Program-made: the position numbers and the translations under genes
Shown here: positions 284 to 10,674 of the stretch, one piece after another
How the letters are laid out: the number at the start of each line of letters is the position of its first letter
How positions within the stretch are numbered: the stretch's first letter is position 1
Notes under the pieces: model-generated
What the model was told of the DNA's origin: nothing
Seen by the model: the letters and a program-made list of their open reading frames with translations, nothing else
Databases searched by the model: none
DNA from: Modestobacter roseus
GTDB taxonomy: Bacteria; Actinomycetota; Actinomycetes; Mycobacteriales; Geodermatophilaceae
Length of the DNA stretch: 64,000 bases
Assembly (NCBI RefSeq): GCF_007994135.1
Contig: NZ_VLKF01000001.1
Coordinates: 3,534,001 to 3,598,000, forward strand
Direction of reading: 5' to 3'

Positions 284-3200
284 TCAGCGGGCGCGGCGGC
301 GCAGGCCGCGGAGCGTGCGGACGGCGACCAGCAGCTCGGCGAGCTCGTGCCGCTCGCCGGTCGCCAGCTCCTCCAGCTGGACGGCGGCACGCTGCTGGGC
401 GACGTCCCAAGCGTCGGCCCACCGTCCGACCAGCGCGTCCGCCGGCTCGTCGTCGGAGCTGCGCAGGTCCAGCACGTCGGCGGTGAGGGTGGCCTGCTCC
501 GCGGCCAGGTCGTCGCGCAGCGAGGTGCGGGCGATGGAGTCCCAGCGCCGGTTGCGCGGCAGCGCGATGACCAGCTCGCGCAGCGGGACCAGCCCCAGCC
601 GCTCGCCCAGGCACTGGGCCACCTGGCCGGCGAGCGCGATCGGCGCCCCCGCGGCCTCGGCGACCACCGCGAGGTCAAGCGCGGCCGGCAGCAGCGGCGC
701 CGCGGCCACCTCCGCCGCGAGGTCGGCGGGCACGCCGTCGGCCTGCAGCGCGGCGGCCCGCTCGGCGTACCCGGCCGCGTCGGCCCCCAGCAGCCACCCC
801 GGCAGCCCCGCGCAGACCTCCGTGACCGGCCCGGCGAACCGGTCGACGACCGTCTGCAGCGACGGCGCCGGCTCGGCGGTCAGCTCCGGCAGCCGGATCA
901 GCCAGCGGGTGGCCCGCTCGGCCAGCCGGGTCGCCTCGGTGCGCAGGTGGACGAGGGTGGCGGCCGGCACCCGGTTGTCCAGCTCCCGTGGGGCGTCCCA
1001 CATCCGGTCGACGTCGAACACGGCCCGGGCGACCGCGTGGGCGCGGACCACCGCGGCCAGCGGCGCACCGGTCTCCTCGGCCAGCCGGAACACCCCGGTG
1101 ACGCCGGCGGTGTTCACCGTCCGGTTGGTGAGGACGGTCGCCACGATCTCCCGCCGCAGCGGGTGGTCGGCGATCGCCGCGGCGAAGCGGCCGCGCAGCG
1201 GGCTCGGGAAGTAGTCCGACAGCAGCCCGGCCAGCGCCGGGTCGTCGGGCAGCCCGGAGGCGAGCACGGCGTCGCCGGCCTCGATCTTGGCGTAGGCCAG
1301 CAGCACCGACAGCTCGGGCCCGGTGAGCGCCAGCCCGTCGCGGCGACGCTCGGTGATCGCCCGGTCGTCGGGCAGGAACTCCACGGCCCGGTCCAGCCGC
1401 CCCGCCCGCTCCAGCCAGCGCAGGTAGCGCTGGTGCGCGTCGAGCAGGCCCCGCGAGGCCGCGGCGTCGCTGGCCAGCGTGGCGTTCTGCGCGTGGTTGT
1501 CGGTGAGCACGGCGGCCGCGACCTCGTCGGTCATCCCGACCAGCAGCCGGGCCCGGCCGTCGGCGTCCAGCCCGCCCTCGTCGACCACCCGGTTCAGCGC
1601 GATCTTGATGTTGACCTCGTGGTCGGAGGTGTCCACCCCGGCCGAGTTGTCGATGGCGTCGGTGTTCAGCCGCCCGCCGGTCAGCGCGTACTCGATCCGG
1701 CCGCGCTGGGTCAGGCCGAGGTTGCCGCCCTCCCCCACCACCCGCACCCGCAGTTGCCCGCCGTTGACCCGGACGGCGTCGTTGGCCTTGTCGCCCACGT
1801 CGGCCGCGCTCTCGGTGGCCGCCTTCACGTAGGTGCCGATGCCACCGTTGAACAGCAGGTCGACCGGGGCGAGCAGCACCGCGCGGACCAGGTCCACCGG
1901 GCTGAGCGACGCGACGTCGGCGGGCAGCCCGAGGGCCTCGCGCATCGGCGCGGAGACCGGCACGGCCTTCGCCGTCCGGGGCCACACCCCGCCGCCGGGG
2001 CTGATCAGCGACCGGTCGTAGTCCGCCCAGGAGGAACGGGGCAGGGCGAACAGCCGCTGCCGCTCGGCGAAGGAGGCGGCGGCGTCCGGCGTCGGGTCGA
2101 CGAACACGTGCCGGTGGTCGAAGGCGGCGACCAGCCGCAGGTGCTCCGACAGCAGCATGCCGTTGCCGAAGACGTCGCCGGACATGTCACCGACGCCGAC
2201 GACGGTGACCTCCTGGCTCTGCACGTCGACGCCGAGCTCGCGGAAGTGCCGGGTGACCGATTCCCACGCCCCGCGCGCGGTGATGCCCATCGCCTTGTGG
2301 TCGTAGCCGACCGAACCGCCGGAGGCGAACGCGTCGCCCAGCCAGAAAGCCCGCTCGATCGCCACCGAGTTGGCCAGGTCGGAGAAGGTCGCCGTCCCCT
2401 TGTCGGCGGCGACCACCAGGTAGGTGTCGTCGCCGTCGTGCCGGACCACCCGCTCGGGCGGCACGACGGTGCCGTCGACCAGGTTGTCGGTGAGGGAGAG
2501 CAGCGCGCCGATGAACAGCCGGTAGCAGGCCTGCCCCTCGGCGACGACGTCGTCGCGGGTGGCGCCGTCGGCCGGCGGCCGGAGCGGCACGAACCCACCC
2601 TTGGCGCCGGTGGGCACGATGACCGTGTTCTTCACCGTCTGCGCCTTGACCAGGCCGAGCACCTCGGTGCGCAGGTCCTCCCGGCGGTCGCTCCAGCGCA
2701 GCCCGCCCCGGGCGACGGCGCCGAAGCGCAGGTGCACGCCCAGCACCCGCGGCGAGCTCACCCACACCTCCCGGGCCGGCCGCGGCTCGGGCAGGTCGGG
2801 CACGCCGGTCGGGTCGAGCTTCAGCGCGAGCGGCGCCCGGCCGGCGACGACGTCGGCGGTGTAGGCGGTGGTCCGCAGGGTGGCCCGGACCGCGGCCAGC
2901 AGCGCGCTGAGCACCCGGTCGGCGTCCAGCGACGCCACCTCGCCGATGGCCTCGGTGAGCGAGCCGACCAGCGCCTCGGTGCGGGCCTCCCGCCCGGCGG
3001 CGCGGTCGGGGTGGAAGCGGGTCTCGAACAGCGCCACCAGCCGGGCGACGATGCCGGGGTGGGCGGCGAGGGTCTGCTGCACGTAGTCCTGCCCGAAGGG
3101 CAGCCCGCCCTGGCGCAGCCACTGCACGTAGGCGCGCAGCACCGCCACCTGCCGCCAGGTCAGTCCGGCCAGCAGCACCAGCGCGTTGAGCCCGTCGTCC

Positions 3201-5212
3201 TCGGCGCGGCCGGCCCAGATCGCGGTGACGGCGTCGGTGAAGCGCTCCGGCAGCGTGCCGGCGAAGGGCACCTCGTCGGTCGGCGAGGCGAGCCCGAAGT
3301 CGTACACCCAGGCCAGCGGCGCGCCGATCCGGTCGATCTCGTAGGGCCGCTCGTCGAGGACGTCGACCCCCATGTGCTGCAGCACCGGGAGGACGTCGGA
3401 CAGCAGGAGCCGATCCCCCACCCGGTAGACCGTCAGCCGCCGCTCCCCCTCGGCCGGGTTCCGCGGGGCACGCAGCCGCAGGTCCATCTCACCGGGGCCG
3501 AGCCGGTCGAGCCGGGCCAGGTCGTCGACGGCGACCGCGGCCGGGAAGTCGCCCTGGTAGGCGGCCGGGAAGGCGTCCGCGACCCGGGCGAGCAGCCGGG
3601 GTGCGTCGTCGCCGTACCGGGCGGTCAGCGCGTCGGACAGCTCGTCGGTCCAGCTGCGGGCGGCACCGGCCAGCGCCGTCTCCAGCGCCGGCACGTCGAC
3701 GTCGGGCAGCCGCGGCAGCTCCCGCCGGCTGACCGGCACCCGCACGACGAAGTGCAGCCGGGTCAGCACCGACTCGCTGGAGCGGACGGTGAACTCCACC
3801 GTCGTCCCGCCCAGGTGCTCCAGCAGCAGCTGCTGCATCGCCAGGCGGACGGCGGTCGTGTACCGGTCCCGGGGCAGGTAGACCAGCGCGGAGAAGAACC
3901 GGCCGAACGGGTCCCGGCGCAGGAACAGCCGGGTCTGCCGCCGCTCGCGCAGGTGCAGCACCGCCAGCGCGACCGGCAGCAGCTCGTCGACGTCGACCTG
4001 GAGCAGCTCGTCGCGCGGGTAGCTCTCCAGGACGTCGAGCAGCTCCTTGCCCGAGTGGCTGTCGGCCGGCACGCCGGAGCCGGCGAGGACGGCGTCGGCG
4101 GTGCGGCGCACCAGCGGCACGTCCCGGACGCTGCTCGCGTAGGCCTCGGTGGGGAACAGGCCGACCAGCAGGTGCTGGCGGGCCCGGCTGCCCGGGGCGT
4201 CGCTGGGCAGGTCGACGACGACGAGGTCCAGCCAGGCCGGGCGCTGCACGGTCGACCGGGCATCGCCCTTGGTGACCAGCACCCGGTGGCCGGTGCCGCC
4301 GCGCGCGGCCAGCGCGGCCGGGGCGACGGAGGTGGCCCGGTCGGGCGAGCTGCGCAGCAGCCCGAGCTCGGAGCCGGGCACGACCTCCGGGGTGGCGTCG
4401 GCCCCCACCAGCTCGACGGTGCGGGCGCCGAGGAAGAGGAACGTCCCGTCGGCGAGCCAGCGCAGCAGCGCAGCGGCCTCCGCCGGGTCGTCGGCCGGGT
4501 GACCGGCCCGGTCGTCGGCCGGCGCGCCGGGGAGCCGGTCCAGGGCCTCGGCCACCTCACGGGCGCGGTCGGCGAGCGCCGCGGCGTCCTCGTGGGCGCG
4601 CCGGACGTCGGCGAGCACCCCACCGAGCCCGGCGACGAGGTCGGCGGCGGCCTCGTCGTCGACCTGGCCGGCCAGCACCACCGCCATCCACGACTCGGCG
4701 GCCGCGCCCGCACCGCAGGACGCGACGTCGGCGCTGTCGCAGAACGCGGTCAGCCCGCCGTCGGTGTCCCGGCGGACCACCACGACCGGGTGGACGACGT
4801 GCTCCACGACCACGCCCTGGCGGACCACCTCCGCGGTGACCGAGTCGACCAGGTAGGGCATGTCGTCGACGACCACCCGCAGCACCGCCCGCCCCCCGGC
4901 GGTGCGGTGCACGTCGACCGTGGCCGTGCCCGGCGGCCGGGTGGCGGCCAGCCGGAGGTGCGCCAGGGCCAGCCCCGCGAGGTCGGCCGGGTCGTGACCG
5001 ACGATCTCGGCGGCCGGCTCACCGGAGTAGAAGCGGTGCAGCAGGGCCGCGGCGTCGACCGGGCCGAACGAGGCGGGCGCGTCGGCGGACTCGGCGAGCA
5101 GCGTGCCGGCGGTCTCGGCCGCCCGGTCCAGGAGGCGGTGCTTCTCCTCCTGGGCCGCCTCGAGGGCGGCCATGTCGGCGCCGACGTCGGGAGAGGAACC
5201 GCGGCGGACCAT
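284..5212 (-). CDS. gdhB: NAD-specific glutamate dehydrogenase, large (about 180 kDa) type
   Basis: The 1642-residue protein converts glutamate to 2-oxoglutarate and ammonium with NAD+, a mainly catabolic cytoplasmic reaction. The length matches the large GDH class known from Streptomyces and Pseudomonas (about 1600-1650 residues). The long N-terminal regulatory half contains an ACT-like stretch. The catalytic half has the lysine motif PTGAKGGF near residue 866, then VVGVGDMSGDVFGNGMLLS, GEGGNLGLTQRGRIEY and NTDAIDNSAGVDTSDHE, all typical of this family. The ATG at 5210-5212 gives MVRRGSSPDVGADMAALEAA; an internal ATG fourteen codons in is an alternative. The PGPGW gene follows 10 bases after the stop. 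A long open frame on the opposite strand covers the whole gene but has no recognisable protein features. Confidence 0.95.
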   Translation of the reverse strand: MVRRGSSPDVGADMAALEAAQEEKHRLLDRAAETAGTLLAESADAPASFGPVDAAALLHRFYSGEPAAEIVGHDPADLAGLALAHLRLAATRPPGTATVDVHRTAGGRAVLRVVVDDMPYLVDSVTAEVVRQGVVVEHVVHPVVVVRRDTDGGLTAFCDSADVASCGAGAAAESWMAVVLAGQVDDEAAADLVAGLGGVLADVRRAHEDAAALADRAREVAEALDRLPGAPADDRAGHPADDPAEAAALLRWLADGTFLFLGARTVELVGADATPEVVPGSELGLLRSSPDRATSVAPAALAARGGTGHRVLVTKGDARSTVQRPAWLDLVVVDLPSDAPGSRARQHLLVGLFPTEAYASSVRDVPLVRRTADAVLAGSGVPADSHSGKELLDVLESYPRDELLQVDVDELLPVALAVLHLRERRQTRLFLRRDPFGRFFSALVYLPRDRYTTAVRLAMQQLLLEHLGGTTVEFTVRSSESVLTRLHFVVRVPVSRRELPRLPDVDVPALETALAGAARSWTDELSDALTARYGDDAPRLLARVADAFPAAYQGDFPAAVAVDDLARLDRLGPGEMDLRLRAPRNPAEGERRLTVYRVGDRLLLSDVLPVLQHMGVDVLDERPYEIDRIGAPLAWVYDFGLASPTDEVPFAGTLPERFTDAVTAIWAGRAEDDGLNALVLLAGLTWRQVAVLRAYVQWLRQGGLPFGQDYVQQTLAAHPGIVARLVALFETRFHPDRAAGREARTEALVGSLTEAIGEVASLDADRVLSALLAAVRATLRTTAYTADVVAGRAPLALKLDPTGVPDLPEPRPAREVWVSSPRVLGVHLRFGAVARGGLRWSDRREDLRTEVLGLVKAQTVKNTVIVPTGAKGGFVPLRPPADGATRDDVVAEGQACYRLFIGALLSLTDNLVDGTVVPPERVVRHDGDDTYLVVAADKGTATFSDLANSVAIERAFWLGDAFASGGSVGYDHKAMGITARGAWESVTRHFRELGVDVQSQEVTVVGVGDMSGDVFGNGMLLSEHLRLVAAFDHRHVFVDPTPDAAASFAERQRLFALPRSSWADYDRSLISPGGGVWPRTAKAVPVSAPMREALGLPADVASLSPVDLVRAVLLAPVDLLFNGGIGTYVKAATESAADVGDKANDAVRVNGGQLRVRVVGEGGNLGLTQRGRIEYALTGGRLNTDAIDNSAGVDTSDHEVNIKIALNRVVDEGGLDADGRARLLVGMTDEVAAAVLTDNHAQNATLASDAAASRGLLDAHQRYLRWLERAGRLDRAVEFLPDDRAITERRRDGLALTGPELSVLLAYAKIEAGDAVLASGLPDDPALAGLLSDYFPSPLRGRFAAAIADHPLRREIVATVLTNRTVNTAGVTGVFRLAEETGAPLAAVVRAHAVARAVFDVDRMWDAPRELDNRVPAATLVHLRTEATRLAERATRWLIRLPELTAEPAPSLQTVVDRFAGPVTEVCAGLPGWLLGADAAGYAERAAALQADGVPADLAAEVAAAPLLPAALDLAVVAEAAGAPIALAGQVAQCLGERLGLVPLRELVIALPRNRRWDSIARTSLRDDLAAEQATLTADVLDLRSSDDEPADALVGRWADAWDVAQQRAAVQLEELATGERHELAELLVAVRTLRGLRRRAR

Positions 5213-5285
5213 GTCCGGCCACGCTAGTGGCCTCTCCCCCGGGCCGCACGCACATCGGCGAGCCGGGCGCGGCTCGCCGCGGGAA

Positions 5286-5675
5286 TCAGCTCGCGCGGAC
5301 CTTCAGCGGGAGGATCAGCTCGGCGATCCAGCTGAACAGCGCGATGAGGAAGCCGCCGAACAGCGCCGCCAGGAAACCGTCCACGCTGAACCGGTCGGAG
5401 ATCAGCGCGGTGAGGCCCAGCATCGCCGCGTTGATCACCAGCAGGAACAGCCCCAGGGTGAGGATCACGAACGGCAGCGCGAGCAGCCGCACGATCGGCC
5501 CGACGATGGAGTTGACCAGCGCGAACAGCAGCGCCACCCACAGGTAGGTGCCGGTCTCGCCGAAGAAGCCGGTGGGGTTGCCGATCACCTCGATCCCGTC
5601 GACGAGCCGGGTGACGGCGTAGATGATCGCCGCCAGCACGACGACGCGGAGGGCGAACTTCCCGATCGTGGCCAC
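5286..5675 (-). CDS. phage holin family (YvlD-like) membrane protein
   Basis: The 129-residue protein is almost entirely hydrophobic, with four predicted membrane helices at about residues 5-25, 40-62, 63-85 and 100-122. The arrangement IIYAVTRLVDGIEV, then NSIVGPIVRLLALPFVILTLGLFLLVINAAML, then FLAALFGGFLIALFSWI is typical of the YvlD / PF04020 group labelled phage holin family. In chromosomes these are ordinary small membrane proteins of unknown role, often linked to envelope stress; no phage genes are nearby, so the holin name should not be read as lytic function. It ends about 70 bases upstream of the dehydrogenase start on the same strand. Confidence 0.85.
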   Translation of the reverse strand: MATIGKFALRVVVLAAIIYAVTRLVDGIEVIGNPTGFFGETGTYLWVALLFALVNSIVGPIVRLLALPFVILTLGLFLLVINAAMLGLTALISDRFSVDGFLAALFGGFLIALFSWIAELILPLKVRAS

Positions 5676-5720
5676 GGCGGCACGCTAGCCCCTGGTGATC
5701 GTCATCGTGCGCTGTTGGAC

Positions 5721-5752
5721 CGTCTAGCGGACTCTCGCGTCTGCACTAGACG
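5721..5752. promoter_or_regulatory. inverted repeat CGTCTAG-N18-CTAGACG upstream of the TVP38-like gene
   Basis: Seven-base arms at 5721-5727 and 5746-5752 are exact reverse complements and lie 37 bases before the ATG of the TVP38-like gene and 46 bases before the holin-family gene on the other strand. The arm shares GTCTAG with the palindrome at 6653-6672. A role as an operator in the divergent region is inference from symmetry and position. Confidence 0.4.
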
Positions 5753-5788
5753 TTCGCAGAGACCGGCAGCACGCACACTGGACGGACC

Positions 5789-6514
5789 ATGACCACCCAG
5801 GAGCGACACCACCGGCTGCCGGCGCCCACTGCCGGCCGGGCTGCCCTCCTGCTCGTACTGCTGCTCTGCGGTGCCGCCCTCGCCCTCGTCGTCGACGTGC
5901 CCGGGGTGGGAGAGGTGCGCCGGTGGCTGGACGACGCCGGCCCCGCCGGATGGGCGGGCCTGCTGGCCGGCCTGGCGCTGGCCACCCTGGCCCCGGTGCC
6001 GCGGACCGCGCTGTCGGTGCTGGCCGGGGTGCTCGCCGGCTTCTGGGGCGGCCTGGCGCTGGCCCTGCCCAGCGGCGTGCTCGGTGCCCTGGCCGGTTTC
6101 ACGCTGGCGCGACTGCTGGGCCGCGAGGCGGTCACCCGCCTGGCCGGGCCGCGGCTGCTCCGGGCCGACGCACTGCTCACCGACCGCGGCGTGCTCGCGG
6201 TGCTGATCGCCCGGCTGACGCCGGTGCTGCCGTTCACCCTGATCAGCTACGCCGGGGGCCTGTCCGGCATGCGGCTGCGCGACCACCTGCTCGGTTCGGC
6301 CGTCGGCCTGACGCCGGGCACGGTGCTGCACGTGGCCGTGGGCGCTAGCGTGGGCGCGGCCGGCCTCGGAGACGGCCGGACCCTGCTCCTCACGCTGGTG
6401 CCGCTGACCCTGGCGCTGCTCGCCCTGGCGGGCGCGCGGTGGTGGCGACGCCGGGCGGCACCGGCCGGTCGGGCGGCGGAGGAGACGGCTCTGCCGTCGT
6501 CTACCGCTCTCTAG
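5789..6514 (+). CDS. TVP38/TMEM64 (DedA-superfamily, VTT domain) membrane protein
   Basis: The 241-residue integral membrane protein has an N-terminal helix (residues 17-36) and then a VTT-type domain: two re-entrant-like hydrophobic blocks around LAPVPRTALSVLAGVLAGFWGGLALALPSG and the family-typical ARLTPVLPFTLISYAGGLSGM, followed by a last helix near residues 205-223. The R-x-x-P-x-x-P-F-x-x-x-S/N-Y pattern is the hallmark of this family. Bacterial members are implicated in lipid scrambling or transport, but the substrate here cannot be read from sequence. Its start ATG at 5789 lies 37 bases downstream of a symmetrical GTCTAG repeat. The coding end itself contains GTCTAC and TCTAGCG, the same short words as in the following intergenic region. 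Confidence 0.85.
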   Translation: MTTQERHHRLPAPTAGRAALLLVLLLCGAALALVVDVPGVGEVRRWLDDAGPAGWAGLLAGLALATLAPVPRTALSVLAGVLAGFWGGLALALPSGVLGALAGFTLARLLGREAVTRLAGPRLLRADALLTDRGVLAVLIARLTPVLPFTLISYAGGLSGMRLRDHLLGSAVGLTPGTVLHVAVGASVGAAGLGDGRTLLLTLVPLTLALLALAGARWWRRRAAPAGRAAEETALPSSTAL

Positions 6515-6578
6515 CGCAGGCGGAAGAGAGTCGCAGACCGTGCTCGTCATGATGCCCTCCCCTCGGCGTCCCGCCTAT

Positions 6579-6594
6579 TCGAACACACGTTCGA
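6579..6594. promoter_or_regulatory. perfect SOS (LexA) box, TCGAAC-ACAC-GTTCGA
   Basis: The 16-mer is an exact 6-base inverted repeat around a 4-base spacer and matches the actinobacterial/mycobacterial LexA consensus TCGAAC-N4-GTTCGA at every position. It lies in the 246-base gene-free stretch 6515-6760, about 167 bases before the AAA ATPase start, which is the only gene it could serve on the plus strand. No minus-strand gene starts nearby. LexA control of the ATPase is inferred. Confidence 0.7.
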
Positions 6595-6652
6595 TCTCTC
6601 TGCTAGTCTCGGCAGCGCGGACGTCGCACGGACTCTGACCCCGTCTCACGAC

Positions 6653-6672
6653 GTCTAGCGCAGCGGCTAGAC
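6653..6672. promoter_or_regulatory. palindromic element GTCTAGC-N6-GCTAGAC upstream of the AAA ATPase gene
   Basis: Exact 7-base arms (6653-6659, 6666-6672) flank six bases. It is 88 bases upstream of the ATPase ATG. GTCTAC is repeated twice just downstream (6711 and 6721) and the half-site TCTAGCG recurs at 5723 and 6510. CTAG is rare elsewhere in the window, so the cluster is unlikely to be random. It is a probable regulator site of unknown partner. Confidence 0.5.
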
Positions 6673-6760
6673 ACGGGCAGACGACGGTCGAGTGGGCACT
6701 GCATGCCCTCGTCTACCCGTGTCTACCGAGCGAGCTATACGAGGCCATAGGCTGCTCGAC

Positions 6761-7948
6761 ATGGACCCCGTGCGGAACCCGTACGCCCCCGGCGCCGGGC
6801 AGCGCCCGCCCGAGCTCGCCGGCCGGGACACCGAGCTCTCCGCGTTCGACGTCGTCCTCGAGCGGATCGCGCACGGCCGGCCGGAGCGGTCGCTGGTGCT
6901 CACCGGCCTCCGCGGGGTCGGGAAGACGGTGCTGCTCAACCAGCTGCGCTCGGCGGCGATCAGCCGCGGCTGGGGCACCGGGAAGATCGAGGCCCGCCCC
7001 GACCAGTCGCTGCGCCGGCCGGTCTCCTCCGCCCTGCACATGGCCCTGCGCGAGCTCCGGCACCCCGACCAGGAGTCGATGGAGGCGGTGCTCGGCGTGC
7101 TGAAGGCCTTCGCGCTGCGCGGCTCGGACGCCTCGGCGAAGGTCCGCGAGCGCTGGCAGCCGGGGATCGACGCCCCCGCCAGCAGCGGCCGGGCCGACTC
7201 CGGGGACATGGAGATCGACCTGGTCGAGCTGCTCAGCGACGCCGCGGGGCTGGCCGCCGACGTCGGCAAGGGCATCGCCCTGTTCATCGACGAGATGCAG
7301 GACGTGCAGGCACCCGACGTCTCGGCGATCTGCGCGGCCTGCCACGAGCTGTCCCAGCAGGGCGCGCCGCTGATCGTCGTCGGCGCCGGGCTCCCCCACC
7401 TGCCCGCGGTGCTGTCGGCGTCCAAGAGCTACTCCGAGCGGCTGTTCCGCTACCTGCGGATCGACCGGCTCGACCGGCCCGCCGCCGACCGGGCGCTGCT
7501 GGCCCCCGCCGAGCGCGAGGACGTCACCTTCGAGGCCGCGGCGCTGGACGCCCTCTACGCCGCCGCCGACGGCTACCCCTACTTCGTGCAGGCCTACGGC
7601 AAGGTCACCTGGGACGTCGCCGCCTCCTCCCCCGTCACCGCCGCCGACGTCGCGATGGCCGCCCCCGCCGCCGAGGCCGAGCTGGCGGTCGGGTTCTTCG
7701 GCTCCCGCTACGACCGCGCGACCCCGGCCGAGCGGGAGTACATGCACGCCATGGCCGAGCTCGGCGGACCGCAGGGCACCCCGGTGGCGACCGCCGAGGT
7801 GGCCGCCGCGCTGGGCCGCAAGCCGGCGTCGCTCTCCCCCGCGCGGGACTCGCTGATCAAGAAGGGCCTGGTCTACTCCGCCGAACGCGGGCAGATCGCC
7901 TTCACCGTGCCGCACTTCGGCCGCTACCTGCTCAGCCACGCCGAGTGA
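6761..7948 (+). CDS. AAA-type ATPase with C-terminal winged-helix-like region
   Basis: The 395-residue P-loop ATPase has Walker A GLRGVGKT (about residues 49-56), Walker B GIALFIDEMQD (about 171-181), a sensor region VVGAGLPHLPAVL, and a C-terminal stretch (about 325-395) with AEVAAALGRKPASLSPARDSLIKKGLVY that reads like a winged helix. The layout resembles the ORC/Cdc6-like or Archaeoglobus-type ATPases seen scattered in actinobacteria, often next to mobile or defence genes. I cannot assign a specific role. I chose the ATG at 6761 because the ATPase-type N-terminus MDPVRNPYAP begins there; an in-frame start 69 bases upstream would add a stretch without family resemblance. A LexA box and GTCTAG repeats precede it, suggesting induction by DNA damage. 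Confidence 0.8.
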   Translation: MDPVRNPYAPGAGQRPPELAGRDTELSAFDVVLERIAHGRPERSLVLTGLRGVGKTVLLNQLRSAAISRGWGTGKIEARPDQSLRRPVSSALHMALRELRHPDQESMEAVLGVLKAFALRGSDASAKVRERWQPGIDAPASSGRADSGDMEIDLVELLSDAAGLAADVGKGIALFIDEMQDVQAPDVSAICAACHELSQQGAPLIVVGAGLPHLPAVLSASKSYSERLFRYLRIDRLDRPAADRALLAPAEREDVTFEAAALDALYAAADGYPYFVQAYGKVTWDVAASSPVTAADVAMAAPAAEAELAVGFFGSRYDRATPAEREYMHAMAELGGPQGTPVATAEVAAALGRKPASLSPARDSLIKKGLVYSAERGQIAFTVPHFGRYLLSHAE

Positions 7949-8005
7949 ACCGGGCGGGCCGGTGCCGGACGTGCGACCACCGGCCCGCCGGGGCAGGGTG
8001 ATCCC

Positions 8006-8953
8006 ATGAGCGCCACCGGGAGCAGCAGCCACGACGTCCGCACGCCGGAGGAGATCACCGTCCCGGTCGCCGGCGGTGACCTCGCCGCGCTCTACTGGGG
8101 CGCGGACGCACCCGGCTCGCCCCTGGTGGTGCTGCTGCACGGCATCACCTCCAACGCGGCCACCTGGGGGCCGGTGGCCGCGGCGCTCGCCGGCGAGTGC
8201 GAGGTGGTCGCCCCGGACCTGCGGGGCCGCGCCGGGAGCGCCGGCCTGCCCGGCCCGTACGGGCTGTCCGCGCACGCCGCCGACGTCACCGCCCTGCTGG
8301 AGCGCTTCGGCGCCTCCGGGGACGCCGGTGCCGACGCGACGGTGCTCGTCGGGCACTCGATGGGCGCCTTCGTCGCCACCCTGGCCACCGCCGGTCAGGC
8401 CCGCGACCTCGTGCACGGGCTGGTGCTCGTCGACGGCGGCCTGCCCTTCGCCGTCCCCCCGGCCGCGGACACCGACGACATGCTCGCCGCCTTCCTCGGC
8501 CCGACGCTGGAGCGGCTGGACCGCACCTTCCCCGACCTCGCCGCCGTCCGCGGGTTCTGGGCCGCCCACCCGGTCATCGGCCGGTGGGTCGACGACCCCA
8601 CCGTCGGGGCCTTCCTCGCCCGCGACCTCACCGGCGAGCCGCCGGAGCTGCGCAGCTCGGTGGTGCACGAGGCGGTCCGGGTCGACGGGGCGGACATGCT
8701 GCGCAACCAGCCGGTGCTGGAGACGACGACGAACCTGCCGGTGCCGGCCACCCTGCTGTGGGCCACCGGCGGCATGGACGGCGAGGTGCCCGGCCTCTAC
8801 GACGAGGTGCGACTGGACCGGATGAACCTCTCCGACGCGCACGTGCGTGCCCGGGAGGTGCCCGGCACCGACCACGACACGATCATCTGGTCGGCCGACG
8901 GCGTGGCCGCGGTGGCCGAGGCGGTCCGGGCGGCGGCAGCAGCGGGCCGCTAG
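8006..8953 (+). CDS. alpha/beta hydrolase
   Basis: The 315-residue protein has the alpha/beta hydrolase fold: oxyanion-hole motif LLHGITSNAATW near residue 40, nucleophile elbow GHSMG (about residues 115-119), and a C-terminal GTDHDTII that supplies the likely catalytic histidine. An aspartate in the ATGGMDGEVPG region is a plausible acid. The natural substrate is not evident; annotations such as lipase or haloperoxidase would be guesses. It has no signal peptide. Its TAG stop shares bases with the stop of the convergent phosphatase gene: CTAG at 8950-8953 is read as TAG on both strands, so the two genes meet with no spacer. Confidence 0.88.
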   Translation: MSATGSSSHDVRTPEEITVPVAGGDLAALYWGADAPGSPLVVLLHGITSNAATWGPVAAALAGECEVVAPDLRGRAGSAGLPGPYGLSAHAADVTALLERFGASGDAGADATVLVGHSMGAFVATLATAGQARDLVHGLVLVDGGLPFAVPPAADTDDMLAAFLGPTLERLDRTFPDLAAVRGFWAAHPVIGRWVDDPTVGAFLARDLTGEPPELRSSVVHEAVRVDGADMLRNQPVLETTTNLPVPATLLWATGGMDGEVPGLYDEVRLDRMNLSDAHVRAREVPGTDHDTIIWSADGVAAVAEAVRAAAAAGR

Positions 8954-10674
8954 ACCACCGGGTGACAGCGCACCGCGAGCAGGGCGACGTCGTCCTCCGC
9001 GCCGTCGGCCAGCAGCTCCGCCAGCAGCCCGTCGGCGAGCCGGTCCAGCGGCTCCCCCGCCAGCCGGGACGCCGCGGCCCGCAGCCGCTCGCGCCCGGCG
9101 TCCAGGTCGCTGGTGCGCCGCTCGAACAGCCCGTCGGTGAACAGCAGCAGCGTGCTGTCCGGCGGCAGCACGGTCAGCCCCTCACCCCGGGCGCCGTCCC
9201 GCTCCGGCAGGCCCAGGTCGAGCCCCAGCCCCAGCGGTGGCCCCACCGGCGCCTCGAGGTCGGTCACCGTGCCGTCGGGGAGCACCAGCAGCGGCATGGG
9301 GTGCCCGGCGACGGCCCAGCGCAGCCGGCGCAGGCCGGCGGCCCGGTCGGCGTCGTCCATCTCGATCCGGGCGACCAGCGCGGTGGCCAGGGAGGCGACC
9401 TGCAGGCCGACGACGGCGCGGTCGACCCGACGCAGCACCTCGCCCGGTCCGGTCTGCCGGTCGTAGGCGATCGCCCGCACCAGGGTGCGCAGCTCCGCCA
9501 TCGTGGCGGCGGCCTCCAGGTCGTGGCCCATCACGTCGCCGATGACCAGCACGGTCGCGCCGTCGGGCTGGAGGAAGGAGTCGTACCAGTCGCCGCCGAT
9601 GGAGACGTCCTGCGCCGCGGGGCGGTAGCGGACGGCCAGCTCCAGGTGGTCGGGCTGCACGGGTGGGGACAGCAGGCTGCGCTGCAGCCGCTCGGCGACG
9701 CGGGTCTGCGCCGCGGCCAGCCGGGCGTTGTCCAGCGCCAGCCCGGCCCGCCGGGACATGATGTCGGCGGTGCGCAGCTCGGCGTCGGTGAACGCGCCCC
9801 GCTCCGGCCCGGTGACGAGGGTGACCGCGCCGAACAGCTCGCCCCGGGCCACCAGCGGGAAGGTGGCCACCGAGTGCACCCGCAGCGGCGCGAGCGCCTC
9901 CCGGGCCGCCGGGGTGGTCATCGCCTCCACCTGCCGGGGCTCGATCCCCTGGATCACCACCGGCCGGCCGTCCCGCAGCGCGGTGGGCACCGGCGCCGTC
10001 GCCTGGTTGGTGCGGGCCCGCAGGTCGGCGTACCGGTGCATGTGCGGCACCATCGCCGGGTCGCGGTGGGCGCGGCCGACGTCCCGCCGGACGCCGTCCT
10101 CGACGACGCTCACCAGACACCAGTCGGCCAACGGCGGGACGATCAGCTCCGCGAGCCGCTGCACCGCCTCGCCGGTGTCCAGCGTCGCGGTCATCGCCTG
10201 GCTGACGTCGCCGAGCAGCATGAGGTGCCGGCCGGCCAGCTCGGCGGCGTGCGCGGCCTCGGCGGCGCGCTCGGCCTCCTCCTCGCGGGCGGCGACGGCG
10301 TCGGCCCGGGCCTGCTCGGTCGCCCTCCGCTGGGTGACGTCGTCGTAGGTGACGACCAGCCCGGCCGCGGTGGCGAAGGCGTCGACGTGGAACCACGTCC
10401 GCAGCGGCGGGTACCAGGACTCGAACGCGACCGGCTCGCCGGTGCGCGCGACGTGCTCGTAGTGCCCCGCGAACTCGCTGCCGACCGCCTCCGGGAACTC
10501 CGCCCAGATCACCCGGCCCACCAGGTCCTCGACCCGCCGCTGCAGCAACTGCGCGCCGGCCGGGTTGACGTAGCTGAACCGCCAGTCCTCGTCCAGCACG
10601 AAGAGCGGCCGGGGCATGGCCCCGACCGCCTGGACCAACAGGTCCGCCGACGGCGCGGCGCCGTCCGGGGTCAT
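8950..10674 (-). CDS. PAS-GAF-SpoIIE/PP2C serine phosphatase
   Basis: The 574-residue protein has three domains: a PAS fold (about 15-125, with FVLDEDWRFSYVNPAGAQLL), a GAF domain (about 175-325) and a C-terminal PPM/SpoIIE-type phosphatase (about 340-570). Metal-binding signatures are visible as SIGGDWYDSFL, IGDVMGHDLEAA and a late LLLFTDGLFERR. Such phosphatases usually dephosphorylate anti-sigma factor antagonists in partner-switching stress pathways. No anti-sigma or antagonist gene is adjacent. The PAS lacks the GRNCRFLQ cysteine motif of LOV domains, unlike the related phosphatase at 37-39 kb. I chose the ATG at 10672-10674 (MTPDGAAPSADLL); an upstream in-frame start would add 28 unconserved residues. 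It is convergent with the hydrolase and shares its stop. Confidence 0.87.
   Translation of the reverse strand: MTPDGAAPSADLLVQAVGAMPRPLFVLDEDWRFSYVNPAGAQLLQRRVEDLVGRVIWAEFPEAVGSEFAGHYEHVARTGEPVAFESWYPPLRTWFHVDAFATAAGLVVTYDDVTQRRATEQARADAVAAREEEAERAAEAAHAAELAGRHLMLLGDVSQAMTATLDTGEAVQRLAELIVPPLADWCLVSVVEDGVRRDVGRAHRDPAMVPHMHRYADLRARTNQATAPVPTALRDGRPVVIQGIEPRQVEAMTTPAAREALAPLRVHSVATFPLVARGELFGAVTLVTGPERGAFTDAELRTADIMSRRAGLALDNARLAAAQTRVAERLQRSLLSPPVQPDHLELAVRYRPAAQDVSIGGDWYDSFLQPDGATVLVIGDVMGHDLEAAATMAELRTLVRAIAYDRQTGPGEVLRRVDRAVVGLQVASLATALVARIEMDDADRAAGLRRLRWAVAGHPMPLLVLPDGTVTDLEAPVGPPLGLGLDLGLPERDGARGEGLTVLPPDSTLLLFTDGLFERRTSDLDAGRERLRAAASRLAGEPLDRLADGLLAELLADGAEDDVALLAVRCHPVV

Follow-up and report, generated by a model that had tools for sequence, protein, structure and literature searches.

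A LexA box and nested inverted repeats upstream of an ORC/STAND-type ATPase gene in Modestobacter roseus

Introduction

Why should a perfect LexA box stand in front of an AAA+ ATPase gene, and what might be gained by placing such a protein under SOS control? These questions are raised by one intergenic gap in the window, by which we mean the whole stretch of 64,000 nucleotides from Modestobacter roseus that was analysed. A first-pass annotation of this DNA had reported an exact actinobacterial SOS consensus in the only gap able to serve the ATPase gene, had described the product as ORC-like, and had proposed that it might be mobile or linked to defence, or be a repair factor not yet characterised.

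The LexA targets of Streptomyces venezuelae have been mapped by ChIP-seq and RNA-seq, and the main text of that study gives the consensus tCGAAC-N4-GNNCGa, with validated boxes reaching up to -162 from the start in the case of recA (J Bacteriol 2022, PMC9380542). Among the titles and abstract openings listed in searches of the open-licence PMC literature, none deals with this ATPase gene or its SOS control. Our preferred reading, which we hold with a probability of about 0.72, is that the ATPase is an autoregulated, DNA-binding protein of the ORC/STAND type that would act through 38-bp repeats, and that its gene has a second promoter repressed by LexA.

Results

The LexA box and its genomic context

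The sequence TCGAACACACGTTCGA shows no mismatch to TCGAACN4GTTCGA and is the only perfect match in a pattern scan of the window, where five matches are found at up to two mismatches against 1.4 expected. Throughout the 4.52-Mb genome there are six perfect matches and 34 at no more than one mismatch (the six included), while the backwards pattern finds three places, and the reported consensus match is thereby upheld. Thirteen further genomes contain between 3 and 10 perfect boxes each, and there the backwards control finds none.

Owners of the boxes were assigned from open reading frames and Pfam matches for part of the 34. The lexA gene has a perfect box and two additional one-mismatch boxes, at a place shared with a divergent LysM gene and nrdR; the DUF6504-dnaE2 pair, dinB and one DUF222 gene have perfect boxes, and a further perfect box lies at genome position 1107606. 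Boxes with one mismatch are found at recA, ruvCAB, an AlkB-like oxygenase gene, a radical-SAM gene and four additional DUF222 genes. The DUF222 genes, which we take to be of the 13E12 type, have their boxes (0-1 mismatch) at or near the start (loci L150, L153, L157, L159 and L161). The radical-SAM gene (locus L155, G000:C1:1403970) gives weak matches to Hint and LAGLIDADG models and may hold an intein. As far as the main text of the S. venezuelae study shows, the two regulons have recA, lexA, dnaE2, DNA polymerase IV, ruvC/ruvA and alkB in common, and the distances from box to start are similar; the words ATPase, AAA and ATP-binding are absent from that main text (PMC9380542).

Layout of the locus

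The features of the locus are collected in Table 1. The gap between the VTT gene and the ATPase gene (6515-6760) has a GC content of 63-64% against 74% for the window, and the LexA box ends 166 nt before the ATPase ATG. This gap is indeed the only one able to serve the ATPase; besides the box it holds the repeats and a TAGGCT hexamer 7 nt before the ATG, and a TA-type hexamer is kept at this proximal -10 position in aligned relatives.

Table 1. Features of the ATPase locus, with positions counted along the window.
Feature	Position	Strand	Remarks
LexA (SOS) box TCGAACACACGTTCGA	6579..6594	palindrome	consensus match and conservation
-10 hexamer TAGTCT, predicted LexA-repressed distal promoter	6604..6609	+	9 nt after box
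-10 hexamer TAGGCT, predicted proximal leaderless promoter	6748..6753	+	7 nt before ATG
AAA+ (AAA_16) ATPase with C-terminal winged helix, 395 aa	6761..7948	+
Operator-like site O4, 38-bp nested inverted repeat	6712..6749	.	over proximal promoter; ends 11 nt before ATG
Operator-like site O3, perfect TCT-N7-TCTA-N10-TAGA-N7-AGA	6644..6681	.	68 bp upstream of O4
Operator-like site O2, 1 mismatch	6500..6537	.	41 bp upstream of LexA box; overlaps end of VTT gene
Operator-like site O1	5723..5760	.	between PF04020 gene (-) and VTT gene (+)
Small membrane protein Phage_holin_4_2 (PF04020), 129 aa	5286..5675	-	likely second target of 38-bp site
NAD-glutamate dehydrogenase (gdh)	284..5212	-	downstream of PF04020 gene; possible operon
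VTT-domain membrane protein	5789..6514	+	neighbour upstream of ATPase

Conservation of the box in Modestobacter

In 19 of the 23 Modestobacter genomes the ATPase start is preceded, at 172-209 nt, by a perfect LexA box, whose arms are unchanged and whose spacer bases differ between species; the box is kept in genome G106, where the VTT gene was not found nearby. Exactly 9 nt after the box comes a TANNNT hexamer (19 of 19 boxed genomes; background frequency 0.0045), so that LexA bound here would be well placed to block the predicted distal promoter. In a first sample of 96 ATPase loci outside the genus, some of whose genomes were counted twice, no perfect box was present, 700 nt being rechecked; nine genomes of other genera, with none at the ATPase, contain 3-9 perfect boxes at other places. 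SOS control is not basic to the ATPase, because four of the 23 Modestobacter genomes and all 96 of these outside loci are without the box. In a gene tree that leaves out L135 and L136 (less than 500 nt), the fourth boxless and one boxed genome being too short, the other three boxless Modestobacter genomes form a supported clade, and the best tree needs four label changes; the box may have been gained a single time within the genus.

A second lineage with LexA boxes

A scan of 400 nt upstream of the gene at each of 86 homologue loci, with a threshold of at least 11 of the 12 box bases, found boxes at 20 loci, and the reversed control found none of 86. Nineteen of the 20 lie in the family designated f86, which has 20 genomes, and the other in Nonomuraea gerenzanensis, from which we take f86 to be probably Streptosporangiaceae. 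Six of the f86 boxes are perfect, and the exceptional genome, G656, retains 10 of 12 bases. The boxes stand 135-284 nt before the ATPase start, and TACAGT or TACTGT (a TACWGT -10) is found 9-14 nt ahead of the box in 20 of 20 loci. The box thus precedes the -10 in Modestobacter whereas it comes after it in f86, and this difference in order suggests separate origins; SOS control of the ATPase apparently arose twice.

The occurrence of the box in relatives that have the gene, proposed earlier as a check on SOS control, is thus divided: it holds for 19 of 23 Modestobacter genomes and 19 of 20 of f86, and fails for the other relatives examined and for the remaining four Modestobacter genomes. The proposal of SOS control is strengthened by the conserved box, the fixed geometry with the -10, a site of the same class as those of lexA, dnaE2 and dinB, and the recurrence in f86, and together these sequence features make LexA-type control of the ATPase gene very likely.

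Operator-like sites upstream of the ATPase

The pattern taken from the proximal promoter occurs at up to two mismatches at four sites in the whole genome (O1 to O4), all of them at the ATPase locus; at three mismatches there is one further place elsewhere, the control giving 0 and 2 on the two strands. The shorter pattern TCTAGN8CTAGA, at up to one mismatch, is found at two places in the genome, each no more than 1.1 kb from the ATPase gene, against 205 for its backwards control, a figure explained by the different make-up of the reversed pattern.

Across the 23 Modestobacter genomes the symmetric pattern TCT-N7-TCTA-N10-TAGA-N7-AGA, allowing up to two mismatches, gives 62 sites against 10 in the control, and 60 of the 62 fall in the 1.6 kb upstream of the ATPase. 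In every one of the 23 a site ends 11 nt before the ATPase start codon, and the spacing of O4 to O3 is 67-69 bp in 22 and 96 bp in one; distances like that of O2 (171 and 240 nt before the start) are found only in G094 and G104, which are boxless. Eighteen genomes of other genera hold 55 sites against 2 in the control, 53 of them within about 12 kb of the ATPase, and the site at 11 nt before the start is present in 17. In 16 genomes of other families there are 30 sites, 23 within 5 kb of the ATPase and 7 elsewhere, and since the control is nearly as frequent there (22), only the position of a site is informative: 10 of the 16 have one 10-30 nt before the ATPase start, and one genome has no site at all.

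A second gene shares the sites. In 10 of 17 loci of other genera the PF04020 gene has a 38-bp site 8-50 bp ahead of its called start, comparable to O1, and an ATPase-type site accompanies a PF04020 holin-like gene at L325 (6321-6358). The VTT gene was considered as the owner of O1 and rejected, for in the VTT-less genomes G106, where the site lies 5.7 kb from the ATPase, and G097 it precedes the PF04020 gene; the trace of a third site covered these two of the four VTT-less genomes, with G094 and G104 left out.

Some sites stand just behind neighbouring genes: in Geodermatophilaceae about 6 nt after an amidase stop codon (L330 15297-15334, L338 9506-9543, L339 8910-8947, L333 3158-3195) and, in family f88, 2-3 nt behind the stop codon of a gene near the ATPase that encodes 487 aa (L344 6462-6499, L346 3836-3873). 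Promoter control is no explanation for these. An RNA hairpin or terminator was considered for them; some are perfect hairpins, yet in L346 the spacers are unpaired, as judged by eye, and the half-sites are kept, so that a DNA site is preferred, although not proven. A trehalose/glycogen regulon, prompted by GH15 and nucleotidyltransferase genes near extra sites, was dropped as a matter of single genomes and not general.

Repeats at the promoters of homologues

Inverted repeats were tested at 54 of 167 prepared loci. At the promoters of homologues 25 of the 54 reach p 0.05 and 15 reach p 0.01. Two comparison stretches were taken from 53 loci each: farther upstream, where L190 was too short, 5 reach p 0.05 and 1 reaches p 0.01, and within the gene, where L136 was too short, the numbers are 5 and 0. 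A regular expression for four half-sites, devised after inspection of the sequences and applied without stretches shorter than 95 nt, matches 16 of 31 accessory homologues (14 distinct promoters) against 1.0-1.7 expected. Among 139 core loci, with some genomes counted twice, its loose form matches 98 (0.76 expected) and its strict form 26 (0.31 expected); in distant homologues (below 35% identity) 12 of 30 match against 6.6-8.3 expected, which is no clear excess.

With the expression fixed, it was applied to unseen loci, L310 being omitted as its plasmid is identical to that of L167. Six of 19 accessory loci match (expected 0.24 loose, 0.10 strict), as do 4 of 20 core loci in the loose form (0.08 expected) and 0 of 20 in the strict form, and all controls are 0. 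Generic inverted repeats occur at 6 of the 19 unseen accessory loci against 0 and 1 of 19, and are not enriched in the unseen core loci (3 of 20 against 2 and 0 of 20). The geometry of the repeats is thus found again, though less often. These sequence patterns are most simply read to mean that the ATPase binds the promoter of its own gene, site and protein changing in step.

Fold and class of the ATPase

The ATPase matches the Pfam family AAA_16 (E 1.1e-22). An AlphaFold2 model built from 30 sequences (pLDDT 92.1, pTM 0.89) predicts an AAA+ core, lid helices and a winged helix; it replaced a weak first model (A1; 23 mostly near-identical sequences, pLDDT 72.7), along with the fold search made from that model. 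Walker A lies at residues 49-56, Walker B at D177-E178 and a GYPYFxQ motif at 271-277; G49-T56, D177, E178, Y272 and P273 are present in 30 of 30 sequences and G271 in 27.

Foldseek places Cdc6/Orc1 and RuvB at the top of its matches to the predicted model. By VIA-align the closest structures are the archaeal ATPases PABY2304 (2qen; Z 23.7 over 324 residues, rmsd 4.3) and SSO1545 (2fna; Z 22.4 over 322 residues, rmsd 4.0), which we take to be of the STAND type, at an identity of 13-15%. Aeropyrum Orc2 follows (1w5t; Z 20.5 over 338 residues, rmsd 5.7), then plant NLRs (Z 16-19) and MalT (8bob; Z 15.4, rmsd 12.0). A sequence search of solved structures returned insignificant matches only, the best being a MarR-like winged helix at E 0.2, and the Orc1/Cdc6 sequence model TIGR02928 scores 17.7 bits, far under its cut-off of 181.3. 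The description of the protein as ORC-like thus holds for the predicted fold, in which an AAA+ domain is followed by a winged helix, and fails at the level of the sequence model.

STAND ATPases are marked by a P-loop, a Walker B motif with DE and a GxP motif ahead of the winged helix, and have C-terminal sensor repeats or an N-terminal effector domain. The P-loop, the Walker B DE and a GxP-type motif are present here; sensor repeats and an effector domain are not, the 395-aa model ending at the winged helix. MalT, a STAND transcription regulator of broadly the same ATPase class, has sensor repeats and a different DNA-binding domain, unlike the present protein with its winged helix only. On the predicted structure the protein may work like an ORC/STAND DNA-binding ATPase, and we do not assign it to Orc1/Cdc6.

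Distribution and the question of defence

The ATPase is present in 109 of 112 Geodermatophilaceae genomes, and in 96 of 96 good ones. It was found in 34 of 296 genomes of a phylum sample (E no more than 1e-20) and in 116 of 394 of a class sample (E no more than 1e-50). A close branch of homologues (about 67-94% identity) is chromosomal, and a second branch (about 35-50%) occurs on plasmids, on viral contigs and as a paralogue in the same genome. Matches were found in 112 plasmid records, 110 of them below 60% identity, and at 36 viral-contig loci at 27-52% identity. The paralogue (L164, G000:C1:3887773-3888921) is 44% identical, and its promoter has a long inverted repeat of a different kind. 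An unverified 5.9-kb 'Bacteriophage sp.' record, MT837995.1 (L171), encodes an ATPase of the chromosomal branch (70% identity) whose gene has similar promoter elements, and is probably bacterial DNA.

When 22 loci were compared, no neighbour was common beyond Geodermatophilaceae except in single pairs; within the family the recurrent neighbours are gdh and the PF04020 gene. The best match of the ATPase among the PADLOC models is partial (E 2.4e-4, 18.7 bits; no curated cut-off shown). Of four annotated plasmid copies, two have toxin or Abi genes no more than about 7 kb away, and no partner common to the four was seen. A defence system was accordingly considered and set aside, the PADLOC matches and the neighbourhood being unconvincing.

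Position on the chromosome

The distance from the ATPase to dnaA ranges over 63-258 kb, with a median of 109 kb, in 28 of 28 genomes, a set restricted to assemblies of one or two contigs whose members are not mutually independent. For 14 genomes from seven families other than Geodermatophilaceae the median is 123 kb, whereas gdh lies 775-2445 kb away (rounded lengths were used for G583, G547, G761 and G416; where there are several gdh copies, the near one was taken in G043 and G048 and the nearest in G742). Under uniform placement the product over these 14 genomes is about 1e-19, a value overstated because of relatedness and the stability of genes near the origin, with gdh as a single control. 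Positions 3000-10000 contain no match to the DnaA box consensus at up to one mismatch, and an origin at the ATPase locus was set aside for this reason; the cognate-like 38-bp sites stand at the ATPase's own locus, about 100 kb from dnaA.

Discussion

The circuit that we propose has two inputs. The ATPase would bind the 38-bp nested inverted repeats, whose four half-sites of the TCT(A)/TAGA type lie about one helical turn apart, and would occupy O4 at the leaderless promoter, O3 farther upstream and O1 before the PF04020 gene. Occupancy of O4 would autoregulate the proximal promoter, and since O4 overlaps that promoter, repression is the most likely sign. At the distal promoter of Modestobacter, LexA bound to its box would occupy the stretch immediately ahead of the -10 and repress transcription; DNA damage, through RecA-stimulated cleavage of LexA, would open this promoter and allow more ATPase to be made independently of the autoregulated one, from a transcript whose leader would contain O3. 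The same logic would apply in f86 with another layout, the box there following the -10. The SOS input looks like an addition over an older set of putative binding sites that are almost confined to the ATPase's own gene.

Several other explanations deserve weighing. The repeats and the ATPase could form an origin-linked nucleoprotein locus concerned with replication control, titration or segregation, with transcription secondary and the SOS response raising the protein so as to restrain or restart replication after damage. The archaeal orc1/cdc6 genes, which adjoin their cognate origin boxes, offer a likeness, and the steady distance from dnaA inside and outside the family, as compared with gdh, the sites after stop codons and on both flanks of the gene, the low GC content of the gap and a fold close to Orc2/Orc1 all point this way. 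We nevertheless consider it unlikely: the distance is compared with one control gene in genomes that are not independent, genes near oriC may generally keep their distance, a locus 100 kb away is not in itself an origin, and positions 3000-10000 hold nothing within one mismatch of a DnaA box. That some other transcription factor binds the repeats, the ATPase gene being merely one of its targets, would account for the 38-bp site at the PF04020 gene; this is rather less probable still, given the near confinement of the sites to the ATPase locus and the fact that homologues have repeat sequences of their own in the equivalent place.

A functional box might also serve an ATPase that is a defence or mobile-element factor induced with the SOS response, as the earlier proposal of a mobile or defence-linked protein would have it. 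A STAND-like fold, a sister branch on plasmids and viral contigs, and the toxin or Abi genes near two plasmid copies would fit, but the copy studied here is found in every good genome of the family, is near the origin in 28 of 28 genomes examined, has no effector domain, meets the PADLOC models weakly and in part, and recurs beside gdh and the PF04020 gene. For this copy the proposal is not supported, and we regard such a role as very improbable. Hardest to believe is that the box serves no ATPase promoter at all, being there by chance or for a non-coding transcript. The box does lie beyond the proximal promoter, 166 nt from the ATG; however, it is conserved while its spacer changes, keeps a constant spacing to the -10, persists in G106 where the VTT gene was not found nearby, and recurs in f86, and validated S. 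venezuelae boxes extend to a similar -162 at recA in the main text of that study (PMC9380542).

The autoregulated, LexA-responsive ATPase that we favour has an archaeal parallel. Orc1-2 of Saccharolobus islandicus is described, in excerpts of PMC9738581, as a DNA-damage-responsive, ATP-switched regulator that binds its own promoter. An AAA+ domain of the ORC type with a winged helix is common to both, as would be binding to the own promoter. According to the same excerpts Orc1-2 itself regulates damage genes through a short asymmetric motif, whereas here the link to damage would be LexA; the present protein also differs in having long nested repeats at one locus and a sequence that is not Orc1/Cdc6 by TIGR02928 (PMC9738581). 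The parallel is an analogy, with no claim of membership. Cdc6-like or STAND proteins are also mentioned in PMC12839542 and PMC8195603.

If the proposed circuit is right, a widespread and uncharacterised bacterial ATPase of the ORC/STAND type gains a candidate DNA target and a likely autoregulatory circuit, to which two lineages would have added a likely damage input with different promoter layouts. A bolder version, which we put forward tentatively and with considerable doubt, is that an ORC-like ATPase, which holds a place about 100 kb from oriC in several actinobacterial families, assembles on the 38-bp sites almost confined to its own locus, acts on replication or segregation, and has been wired independently to the SOS response in at least two lineages (Modestobacter and f86), making it a bacterial counterpart of the archaeal damage regulator Orc1-2. 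Were it to act at the origin region, the SOS response would be joined to replication control through a protein class whose part in such control is known from archaea.

One minor observation concerns the coding sequence in f86. Several loci of this family (L298, L291, L292, L354, L357 and others) have an additional in-frame ATG, which lies downstream of the LexA promoter and 39-57 codons ahead of the start normally used for the ATPase, so a transcript made after damage could encode a longer form of the ATPase.
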